A stretch of 42,275 nucleotides of DNA from Microbacteriaceae bacterium. GTDB taxonomy: Bacteria > Actinomycetota > Actinomycetes > Actinomycetales > Microbacteriaceae. Location of the stretch: contig CANGDL010000012.1 in NCBI GenBank assembly GCA_947452675.1, positions 1-42,275 on the forward strand. Direction: 5' to 3'. The position numbers were made by a program, and so were the translations under genes. The notes below the pieces were generated by a model. It had not been told where the DNA came from, did no database searches, and was given only the letters and a program-made list of their open reading frames with translations. Below, piece after piece: positions 13,160 through 35,754 of the stretch (positions are counted from its first letter, which is position 1; each line of letters opens with the position of its first letter).

Positions 13160-13232
13160 GTGCCCCCGAGAAGAATCGAACTTCCGCACATGGTTTAGGA
13201 AACCACTGCTCTATCCACTGAGCTACGAAGGC
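13160..13232 (-). tRNA. tRNA-Arg (anticodon CCU)
   Basis: The reverse complement folds as a full cloverleaf. Acceptor GCCTTCG pairs with CGGGGGC (two G-U). The anticodon stem GTGGT/ACCAT encloses the loop TTCCTAA with anticodon CCT. The T-arm is GGAAG-TTCGATT-CTTCT. Only ACC, not a full CCA, follows the acceptor stem. It reads AGG codons. TATATT on the minus strand (13243-13248) is a well-placed -10 about ten bases upstream. Confidence 0.95.
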
Positions 13233-31894: not shown

Positions 31895-31965
31895 TCCCCT
31901 ATGGTGTAATGGCAACACTCCGCCCTTTGGAGGCGGCTTTCTAGGTTCGAGTCCTGGTGGGGGAG
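31895..31965 (+). tRNA. tRNA-Gln (anticodon UUG)
   Basis: Full cloverleaf. Acceptor TCCCCTA pairs with TGGGGGA. The anticodon stem CCGCC/GGCGG encloses CTTTGGA, giving anticodon TTG. The T-arm is CTAGG-TTCGAGT-CCTGG. A discriminator G at 31965 is followed by CAG, so CCA is not encoded. It lies 14 bases before glmU and is probably co-transcribed with it. Confidence 0.95.
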
Positions 31966-33434: not shown

Positions 33435-34409
33435 TTGGAAGTTACGACGAACAACTCGAAACGTCTAGTCCTGGTCAGCGGTCGCGCTCATCAAGAACTC
33501 GCACAAGAGGTTGCCGAAATTCTTGGCACCAAGCTTCTGCCAACCACCGCTTACGACTTTGCTAACGGCGAGACCTTCGTTCGTTACGAAGAGTCGGTTC
33601 GAGGTGTTGACGCGTTCGTCATCCAAGCTCACCCAGCACCAATCAACCACTGGATTATGGAGCAGTTGCTCATGGTTGATGCTCTAAAGCGCGCCAGCGC
33701 AAAACGCATCACAGTGGTGGCCCCATTCTTCCCATATGCCCGCCAGGACAAGAAGCACAAGGGACGTGAGCCAATTTCGGCTCGCCTAATGACTGACCTT
33801 TTCAAGGCGTCCGGTGCAAACCGATTGATGTCGGTAGACCTCCACACCCCACAGATTCAGGGTTTCTTTGATGGCCCGGTAGATCACCTCTGGGCGTTGC
33901 CAATGCTTGCCGATCACGTCAAGGAGCGCTTTGGTCACGAGGCCATCACCGTGGTTTCACCAGACTCAGGCCGCGTGCGCGTGGCCGACATCTGGGCAGA
34001 TCGTCTAGGTGCGCCGTTGGCGATCATTCACAAGCGTCGCGACCCAGACCGTCCAAACCAGGTTGAAGCTCACGAGCTTGTTGGTGATGTCAAGGGACGC
34101 ACCTGTCTATTGGTTGACGACATGATCGACACCGCTGGCACCATCGTCGCCGCAGCCCAAGCGCTAAAGGCCAACGGGGCGGCACGCGTGATCGTTGCCG
34201 CTACCCACGCCGTTTTCTCGCCTCCTGCAGTAGAGCGTCTTTCTAGCGGTGCGGTAGACGAGGTTATCGTGACGAACACATTGCCAATCACTCCAGACAA
34301 GCAGTTCGCAAACCTAACCGTGCTTTCGATTGCTCCGCTTATCGCTGCGGCAATCAGCGCCGTTTTCGGTGATGACTCGGTCAACTCGCTGTTCCCAGGT
34401 CACGCATAA
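33435..34409 (+). CDS. prs: Ribose-phosphate pyrophosphokinase
   Basis: 324 residues from a TTG at 33435, with TGGAGA eight bases upstream. It makes PRPP from ribose-5-phosphate and ATP for nucleotide, histidine and tryptophan synthesis. Class I signatures are clear: ARQDKKHKGREPIS (ATP-binding loop), DLHTPQIQGFF and the PRPP loop VDDMIDTAGT. It is probably co-transcribed with glmU. A hairpin follows that is both terminator-like and promoter-bearing. Confidence 0.97.
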   Translation: MEVTTNNSKRLVLVSGRAHQELAQEVAEILGTKLLPTTAYDFANGETFVRYEESVRGVDAFVIQAHPAPINHWIMEQLLMVDALKRASAKRITVVAPFFPYARQDKKHKGREPISARLMTDLFKASGANRLMSVDLHTPQIQGFFDGPVDHLWALPMLADHVKERFGHEAITVVSPDSGRVRVADIWADRLGAPLAIIHKRRDPDRPNQVEAHELVGDVKGRTCLLVDDMIDTAGTIVAAAQALKANGAARVIVAATHAVFSPPAVERLSSGAVDEVIVTNTLPITPDKQFANLTVLSIAPLIAAAISAVFGDDSVNSLFPGHA

Positions 34410-34426
34410 ATAAAAGCATTGAAGTT

Positions 34427-34460
34427 CTAACGGGTTGCCCATTCGCGGGCAGCCCGTTAG
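34427..34460 (+). terminator. Terminator-like hairpin after prs
   Basis: A 14-bp stem with one G-U pair (arms 34427-34440 and 34447-34460) and a six-base loop. The following bases (ACTTTAAG) are a poor U-tract, so termination may be incomplete. A promoter for rplY is embedded in the same bases. Confidence 0.65.
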
Positions 34461-34463
34461 ACT
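34435..34463 (+). promoter_or_regulatory. Putative rplY promoter inside the prs hairpin
   Basis: TTGCCC (34435-34440), a 17-bp spacer, and TAGACT (34458-34463). Spacing is ideal and the -10 is the motif seen before mfd. It predicts a transcript start near 34470, just before the structured leader. Confidence 0.6.
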
Positions 34464-34469
34464 TTAAGT

Positions 34470-34592
34470 AGACAACGGCGAGGGCTCCAAACGGAGCCGT
34501 TATCGACGGGGCATTTAGCTGGTTTTCCAGCCGGTATCCTCGCGTTTTAGCTTGAGTTGAGACCAAACAAACATCCGATTGGAAATATTCTT
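34470..34592 (+). ncRNA. Structured RNA leader of rplY
   Basis: Three helices can form together. P1 is GCGAGG (34478-34483) with CCTCGC (34538-34543). P2 is GCTCC-AAAC-GGAGC (34484-34497), stacking on P1 without a gap. P3 is GCTGG-TTTT-CCAGC (34518-34531). The joiners are about 20 and 6 bases, giving a three-way junction. A rival helix AACGGC (34474-34479) with GCCGTT (34496-34501) would disrupt P1 and P2. I do not recognise a known riboswitch or ribosomal-protein leader family here. Autoregulation by L25 is a natural hypothesis. All pairings were found by eye. Confidence 0.5.
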
Positions 34593-35165
34593 ATGAACAC
34601 TGCTGCAAAGCTAGACGCAACTCTTCGCACCAAGTTCGGTAAGGGCGCATCACGCCAGGACCGCATGAAGGGCCGCACCCCGGCTGTAATTTACGGCCAC
34701 GGTGCCGAGGCTCGTCACATCACTGTAGACGCACATGAAGTTGCAAAGATCTTGCGTCACAAGAACGCTGTTATCGACCTAAACCTAGACGGCAAGGTCG
34801 AGTCAGTTCTAGTGAAGAGCGCAACCAAGGACCCTGTAACCCAAGTCATCGAGCACATTGACCTAGTTGGCCTTTTGGTCGGCGAGCGCGTGCACGTTGA
34901 GGTTCCTGTTCACGTTGTTGGCGAGTCGCTTTCAGGCACCGTCATCGACCTAGAGCACAAGACTGTGAAGCTAGAGGTTGCTGCAACCAGCATCCCTGAC
35001 TTCGTAGAGGCAATCTTCGACAAGCAGGGCGCTGGTTTCCACGTTCTTGCGAAGGACCTAATCGTTCCTGCAGGTGCAAAGCTTGAGCTGGCCGCTGACG
35101 AACTAATCGCGTCGGTTGTTGCAACTGCAGCTGGCCACGCAGCAGACCTAGCAGCAGCAGAGTAA
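34593..35165 (+). CDS. rplY: Ribosomal protein bL25 (CTC form)
   Basis: 190 residues from the ATG at 34593; an in-frame ATG 12 codons earlier falls in the leader and does not fit the family opening. The N-terminal L25 domain (about 1-95) binds 5S rRNA near loop E; the C-terminal beta domain (about 96-185) is the general-stress CTC extension. The RTPAVIYGHG segment and the end of the first domain (IEHIDLVGL) are typical. Leu codons are mainly CTA, as in groEL, which fits high expression. pth follows after four bases. Confidence 0.96.
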   Translation: MNTAAKLDATLRTKFGKGASRQDRMKGRTPAVIYGHGAEARHITVDAHEVAKILRHKNAVIDLNLDGKVESVLVKSATKDPVTQVIEHIDLVGLLVGERVHVEVPVHVVGESLSGTVIDLEHKTVKLEVAATSIPDFVEAIFDKQGAGFHVLAKDLIVPAGAKLELAADELIASVVATAAGHAADLAAAE

Positions 35166-35169
35166 TCAG

Positions 35170-35754
35170 CTGTCTAACTCGGCTTATCTAATAGTCGGGC
35201 TCGGTAACCCCGGGCCCGACTATTCTGCTAACCGGCACAATGTTGGCCAGATGGCGCTTTCGGTTTTAGCCGACCGCCTCGGGGCAACGTTCAAGAGTCA
35301 CAAGTCAAACGCCTCCGTGGCTGAGGCCCGATTAGGCGCGGGTGGCCCAAAGGTCATCCTGGCTAAGCCTGGCTCATACATGAACACCAGCGGTGGCCCA
35401 GTCACTTCGCTGATGAAGTTTTACGACATTGATGTCGCTCATCTGGTGGTTTTACATGACGAGTTGGACATCCCAGCCGAAGATGTTCGTATAAAACTCG
35501 GCGGTGGCCATGGGGGTCACAACGGGCTCCGGGACATTATCGCTGCCTCAGGTTCGAACGAGTTCTCACGTGTGCGAATCGGAATCGGTCGGCCACCAGG
35601 TCGCATGGACACCGCGGATTTTGTGCTCAAAGATTTCTCCTCTGCCGAGCGAAAAGGTCTTCCCGTGACCCTTGAAATTGCAGCAGATTCCGTTGAGGCA
35701 ATCGTCCTTGATGGTGTTCTCGCGGCTCAGAACAAGTTCAACACCGCTAGTTAG
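35170..35754 (+). CDS. pth: Peptidyl-tRNA hydrolase, probable CTG start
   Basis: The conserved N-terminus lies upstream of the first ATG (35251). In frame, CTG at 35170 starts (M)SNSAYLIVGLGNPGPDYSA and then NRHNVGQM, giving 194 residues, the normal family length. This includes catalytic N13 and H23; D97 lies in LVVLHDELD. There is no ATG, GTG or TTG in frame between the upstream stop (35149-35151) and 35251. Starting at 35251 would remove both catalytic residues. The CTG lies four bases after the rplY TAA, suggesting translational coupling; no good Shine-Dalgarno is visible. Pth frees tRNA from dropped-off peptidyl-tRNA. Confidence 0.9.
   Translation: MSNSAYLIVGLGNPGPDYSANRHNVGQMALSVLADRLGATFKSHKSNASVAEARLGAGGPKVILAKPGSYMNTSGGPVTSLMKFYDIDVAHLVVLHDELDIPAEDVRIKLGGGHGGHNGLRDIIAASGSNEFSRVRIGIGRPPGRMDTADFVLKDFSSAERKGLPVTLEIAADSVEAIVLDGVLAAQNKFNTAS

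Follow-up and report, generated by a model that had tools for sequence, protein, structure and literature searches.

Autoregulation of bL25 through the rplY leader is established in E. coli and its relatives, as set out in the rplY passages of a review (PMC10931766). The E. coli-type rplY translational operator (Aseev et al., 2015) consists of an irregular hairpin upstream of a ribosome binding site whose Shine-Dalgarno sequence, GAGA, is weak (cited in passages of PMC10931766 and PMC7247131), and the same review passages state that the autoregulatory features occur only with a short bL25. Among the r-protein leader candidates of Eckert and Weinberg (2020; PMC7247131), Table 1 has no L25 leader in its rows L2 to S15, and the passages of that paper on L25 leaders concern Enterobacteria or L25 leaders in general. 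According to the relevant passage of PMC8470358, hardly anything has been learned about how actinobacteria regulate their r-proteins. A search of the open-licence literature found no account of an actinobacterial rplY leader, which is no proof of absence.

The region upstream of rplY was analyzed in DNA of a Microbacteriaceae bacterium (GenBank assembly GCA_947452675.1, contig CANGDL010000012.1, forward strand; the whole stretch of 42,275 nucleotides is called the window). Like the E. coli operator, the region holds a structured 5' leader before rplY, with bL25 feedback shown there and presumed here. Unlike E. coli, where the operator accompanies only a short bL25 (rplY passages of PMC10931766), the window encodes a two-domain bL25 of 190 aa, and 81 nt separate the conserved core of its leader from the start codon. 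The 20 nt next to the window's rplY start contain no GAGA. Membership in the E. coli-type operator was rejected, as both the short one-domain bL25 and the hairpin before the ribosome binding site with GAGA are missing here. The leader resembles the candidates of Eckert and Weinberg (2020; as described in passages of PMC7247131) in being a clade-specific cis RNA before one r-protein gene, and it has the conserved, covarying structure in an r-protein gene 5' UTR that marks r-protein leaders, with the probable extent of the UTR taken from the -10 element.

Rfam 15 was searched at three thresholds. At the gathering score, the only matches in the window are cspA and two tRNAs, and the leader matches no family, in keeping with the first-pass annotation, which had recognized no known leader family. 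At E<=10, the leader region gave one sub-threshold match (13.8 bits, other strand), and at E<=5 four sub-threshold matches were obtained in 15 other loci, all of them off the leaders. The leader is filed here as a predicted new RNA family within r-protein leaders, distinct from the E. coli-type rplY operator. The cspA thermoregulator match (positions 1-261, + strand; 81 bits vs a gathering score of 78) is truncated by the window start, and the two tRNA genes lie at 13161-13232 (- strand) and 31895-31965 (+ strand).

Table 1. Features of the rplY leader region, in window coordinates.
Feature	Position	Strand	Remarks
prs	33435-34409		gene preceding the rplY leader region
Inverted repeat, 12 pairs	34429-34440/34447-34458		overlaps -35 and spacer
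-35-like TTGCCC	34435-34440	+	letters confirmed; TTG at 17 or 18 nt spacing in 60/125 leaders
-10 hexamer TAGACT	34458-34463	+	letters confirmed; 17 nt from TTGCCC
Probable transcription start zone	34469-34472	+	placed from the -10 position
Core hairpin, putative bL25 site	34473-34511	+	covariation in P2 and the outer pairs; P1b almost without change
P1a	C34473-G34511	+	outermost pair of core hairpin
P1b	34476-34481/34503-34508	+	G34478.A34506 mismatch
P1 5' strand of the first-pass annotation, GCGAGG	34478-34483	+	partner 34538-34543; alternative to core hairpin
Internal loop, 1x4	G34482 / 34499-34502 (GUUA)	+	between P1b and P2
P2	34483-34488/34493-34498	+	upper stem of core hairpin
P3 hairpin, GCTGG/CCAGC	34518-34531	+	optional, variable
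P4 hairpin	34539-34556	+	CTC 34539-34541/GAG 34554-34556 and GC 34542-34543/GC 34550-34551; UU bulge 34552-34553
GAGTTGA	34554-34560	+	GAGTNGA in 33/35 ACAAC-flank, 6/7 ACUUC-flank and 0/4 Aquiluna-type leaders
Small hairpin, TCC-GATT-GGA	34574-34583	+	could hold weak Shine-Dalgarno GGA (34581-34583); from sequence, identical in near relatives L002 and L061
rplY	34593-35165	+	two-domain bL25, 190 aa; Pfam Ribosomal_L25p and Ribosomal_TL5_C; ATG at 34593

Leaders for comparison were gathered by the exact core pattern GGCGAGG ... ATCGAC. An rplY match was present in 170 oriented sequences, counting duplicates, of which 8 lacked the core; deduplication left 129 and then 125, and the related sequences in these counts are not independent. 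The promoter proposed in the first-pass annotation, TTGCCC-N17-TAGACT, is present in the window, and in 125/125 leaders a TANNNT has its last base 11-18 nt ahead of GGCGAG, vs 1/125 and 8/125 in two control zones. Its commonest form is TAGACT (50/125). The position of this -10-like hexamer makes the core, or a site within a few bases of it, the probable start of transcripts. The same annotation had placed this promoter inside a prs terminator hairpin. The inverted repeat exists, but it is followed by no T-run and a scan of 33800-35400 found no + strand terminator, so the terminator was not borne out. Among the fetched loci, the 12-pair repeat is confined to the window (L001, L093) and three relatives (L002 = L031, L061 and L062).

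The folding energy of 34462-34596 (-39.2 kcal/mol, z -1.68; 14/200 shuffles as good) gives it only a slight edge over shuffled sequences, so that the argument had to be built on comparison, and the window-alone energy model gives P1b a pair probability of <=0.015 and prefers other registers. The conserved fold predicted by comparison is a single long hairpin, in which P1b and P2 are separated by a 1x4 internal loop; the first-pass annotation had assigned its 5' strand to P1. The core pattern recurring before rplY is GGCGAG, then P2, then GUNAUCGAC. Its lower stem and internal loop are almost invariant (CGGCGAG / GUNAUCGACG, with a loop consensus of G against GUNA), and P2 above them is free in sequence. 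The invariant GGCGAG strand is able to pair locally with UCGACG, and the hairpin is framed by covarying pairs.

Covariation was measured in two alignments: A1 (55 of 65 cores) and A2 (106 of 123 references, near-duplicates omitted). Within A2, four of the five pairs of P1b (CGGCGA/UCGACG, one G.A mismatch) are invariant. Pair 1 of P2 is G-C throughout and pair 2 is GC in 102, AU in 3 and CG in 1. Pair 3 (columns 17-79) is AU in 55, UA in 27, CG in 18, UG in 1 and other in 5. Pair 4 (columns 18-78) takes all six standard types (GC 30, UA 24, CG 15, UG 11, AU 9, GU 2; other 14). The outer columns 5-94 covary as well (CG 84, UG 9, UA 4, GC 2, GU 1, other 6). The covariation score was 0.287 vs 0.114 for shuffled alignments (0/500 as high) and <=0.096 when the pairing was slid. 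Pairs with changes on both sides numbered 8 vs 6.3 shuffled, an only moderate excess (27/500 as high), and in the 55-sequence alignment neither these counts nor the counts of pair types rose above shuffles (443/500 and 435/500 as high). The covariation among relatives that the first-pass annotation had asked for was found in P2 and in the outer hairpin pairs of the 106 sequences, and P2 covaries in the 55 sequences too. The length of P2 plus its loop ranges from 11 to 49 nt with the base of P2 still paired, and since G.U pairs occur in P2, the core probably acts as RNA. P1b, GGCGAG and ATCGAC hardly vary, partly because the leaders were collected by the exact core pattern; the case for P1b therefore rests on its framing by covarying pairs together with conservation.

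The distribution of the core was followed from near relatives outward. A rplY gene was found in 52/59 relatives and at 32 loci of named records (titles e.g. Rhodoluna, Aquiluna, Microbacteriaceae). The core stands in 61/62 rplY loci, many of which are duplicates of one contig; the exception, L060, begins inside the gene. The 38 distinct leaders follow one scheme, consisting of ACAACGGCGAG (few changes), a variable hairpin, GTNATCGACG, an optional second hairpin, CCTCG, and GAGTTGA or GAGTAGA, and 8 loci do not match the full scheme. Across the order, the core pattern was present in at least 98/248 genomes (37/86 genera), which is a lower bound because the pattern requires a GT absent from the window's own copy; the reversed pattern had no match in the same 248 genomes.

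Model R1, built from 55 sequences, gave one strong match in the window's genome (85% complete) at 8.1e-15, followed by the next at 0.0014. On 346 genomes of the phylum, 75 matched at E<=0.01, and the strong matches were almost all from the same class as the window. All of the fetched R1 phylum matches from that class, the window aside, were loci with an rplY match and the core before rplY (23/23). Six fetched matches from other classes (L108, L116, L119, L121, L122 and L124) were counted as chance, 6/6 being without an rplY match. Within the class, 164 of 236 genomes matched the model at E<=0.01, and rplY was found in 235. Covariance-model matches at E<=1e-6 numbered 79. The place of rplY was available for 65 among the matches listed, and 64/65 lie 61-182 nt upstream of it on the same strand, the exception being a second copy at a contig end. 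Four genomes gave a second match (L179-L182; L179 read in part); by eye these resembled coding sequence and were set aside, none having been observed upstream of rplY. Among genomes that gave no model match, 21 rplY upstream regions were read, of which 8 carry the core (L164-L171) and 13 lack it, so the element is widespread, sometimes missed by the strict filter and truly absent in some families. Two upstream regions of family f100 (L153, L154) have no core and share another possible leader, GTTGCGCTCG ... GAGCGCG. As judged from these searches, the element is conserved through much of the window's class, in many actinobacteria.

Taken together with the structure, this distribution makes it probable that the leader is a cis-acting RNA of the rplY mRNA through which bL25 autoregulates its synthesis. 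Since the checkable strong matches sit before rplY, bL25 would be the likeliest ligand, and the first-pass suggestion of a structured leader with L25 autoregulation as a reasonable model agrees with a conserved, covarying RNA placed in this way. After a transcription start within a few bases of the core, as suggested by the -10 element, the first ~45 nt would fold into the core hairpin, which bL25 in excess of 5S rRNA would bind, lowering rplY expression. The direction of this output is expected from the usual feedback logic of r-protein leaders, and the output itself would vary by lineage.

The same leader might instead sense 5S rRNA, another protein or a small molecule. The core has an aptamer-like appearance, with 16 invariant columns (partly so by construction) round one internal loop, and the downstream outputs are variable. 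The core does not evidently resemble 5S rRNA: when it was compared by eye with relatives' 5S, no likeness to helix IV / loop E was seen. A search of the window's own assembly, which is incomplete, with a 5S model recovered no 5S gene. A metabolite sensor, however, would be expected before other genes too, which is hard to reconcile with the 64/65 placement, and we regard a ligand other than bL25 as unlikely.

The first-pass annotation had itself described a different fold, namely a three-way junction closed by P1 (GCGAGG/CCUCGC) that switches with a rival helix (AACGGC/GCCGUU). Each of its helices can form in the window letter for letter (P1 GCGAGG/CCTCGC, P2 GCTCC/GGAGC, the P3 pairs of Table 1 and the rival AACGGC/GCCGTT). 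The window energy model places the P1 fold at -36.4 kcal/mol vs -31.9 for the core hairpin (minimum -38.7), and CCTCG occurs in 33/35 leaders of the ACAAC-flank class, to which the window belongs, vs 22/90 others. Comparison points to the long core hairpin instead. The full 3' strand of P1, CCUCGC, is present in 30/35 ACAAC-flank and 4/4 Aquiluna-type leaders, but in only 6/79 of the remaining classes and in 0/7 ACUUC-flank leaders, where CCUCACGC takes its place in 7/7 while the core is unchanged; CCTCG is missing from L025 and L026. P1 as a conserved element is not supported, given this replacement and the use of the same strand in P4, described below. The rival helix, real as a set of pairs in the window, has 6/6 pairs in only 15/125 leaders and so is not confirmed as a conserved element. 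A pseudoknot of the rival helix with P1 was rejected, neither helix being conserved beyond the window's clade. The P1-closed switch is accordingly judged very unlikely, and the single core hairpin is retained.

The CCUCGC strand is predicted to belong to a second, covarying hairpin, P4, in Microbacteriaceae-type leaders, where CCUC pairs with GAG and a 2-nt bulge occurs in 35/42 pattern matches. Alignment A3 comprised 30 distinct P4 segments from chosen flank classes; 95.3% of its cells pair and its score was 0.174 vs 0.086 shuffled. Changes on both sides were seen at two pairs (GC to AU in 7; UA to CG or GC in 8), but they are confined to few clades and thus count as few events. Counts of changed pairs and of pair types were not above shuffles in these 30 sequences. 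Directly 3' of P4, GAGTNGA is nearly invariant across Microbacteriaceae-type leaders.

A switch model was also examined that takes the 5' strand of the core out of the hairpin and into a helix with downstream sequence, with z computed vs dinucleotide shuffles by 5'-flank class. This core/downstream pairing was pronounced in Aquiluna-type (mean z -2.36; 4/4 leaders at <=-1.5), GUUCC (-2.58; 4/5), UCCUC (-2.35; 4/6) and GCUC leaders (-2.18; 2/3). GUCAC (-1.61; 4/9), GCCUC (-1.35; 19/41) and 'other' leaders (-1.00; 1/3) followed, then GUCUC (-0.63; 1/3) and GCCCC (-0.31; 0/9). The pairing was weak in the window's own ACAAC class (-0.68; 1/35) and absent from ACUUC (+0.35; 0/7). Overall, 40/125 leaders reached z <=-1.5. 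The first core/downstream energy matrix was not diagonal, and a swap test ranked the native flank first in 5/5 GUUCC, 2/3 GCUC, 17/41 GCCUC, 4/9 GUCAC and 3/9 GCCCC leaders, and in none of the ACAAC (0/35), Aquiluna-type (0/4), ACUUC (0/7), UCCUC (0/6) or GUCUC (0/3) leaders. As a universal rule, the core-to-downstream helix was rejected, as it holds only in part (40/125; class-dependent swap test). For some lineages such alternative pairing is likely; for that of the window it is unproven.

The Aquiluna-type leaders (L052, L053, L054 and L058) carry a CCUC after the core that matches, as its complement, the GAGG Shine-Dalgarno sequence immediately upstream of the start codon, and the neighbouring letters change in matching fashion. 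Mean z for Shine-Dalgarno pairing was -2.37 in these leaders vs -0.26 in the window's class, and the window's clade, which has P4 after the core, shows no such signal. Predicted Shine-Dalgarno pairing is thus supported in Aquiluna-type leaders and not in the window's own clade. The CCUC strand of Aquiluna-type leaders has two possible partners, GCGAGG in the core and the GAGG Shine-Dalgarno sequence. With the core hairpin held, presumably by bL25, CCUC would be free and translation would be blocked. Other leaders suggest termination: L025 and L026 have an intrinsic terminator-like hairpin and six T after the core, and in these two and in L173 holding the core hairpin could lower expression. 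L173, from a 1.4 Mb genome, has a hairpin and six T that end just before the start codon and include the Shine-Dalgarno; it could terminate and sequester at once.

A bolder form of the bL25 reading would make the leader a class-wide bL25-sensing switch with GGCGAGG as a Shine-Dalgarno decoy. The anti-Shine-Dalgarno strand would rest on the decoy when bL25 is scarce (ON); once bL25 held the decoy within the core hairpin, that strand would occupy the genuine Shine-Dalgarno sequence (OFF). Outputs would have been re-invented per lineage, and the switch would operate in two-domain bL25 species thought to be without such control. The overlap of the anti-Shine-Dalgarno strand with the strand that pairs with the core was at chance (70/125 vs 71.2 expected from mononucleotide shuffles), which tells against this form and, slightly, against the plainer bL25 reading. 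We consider this form doubtful. A constitutive 5' element, such as a stabilizing hairpin or a promoter-proximal DNA site with no regulation, would suit a position right at the inferred start site in 125/125 leaders, but it is hardly credible given a P2 that keeps its base paired at every length and admits G.U pairs, a conserved internal loop, and class-specific alternative pairings in some classes.

An autoregulatory bL25 leader is therefore the reading we carry forward. A leader this conserved before a two-domain bL25 would be a ready, testable regulator and a new RNA family for annotation, and through it one could study how the supply of a 5S-binding protein is matched to that of 5S rRNA.
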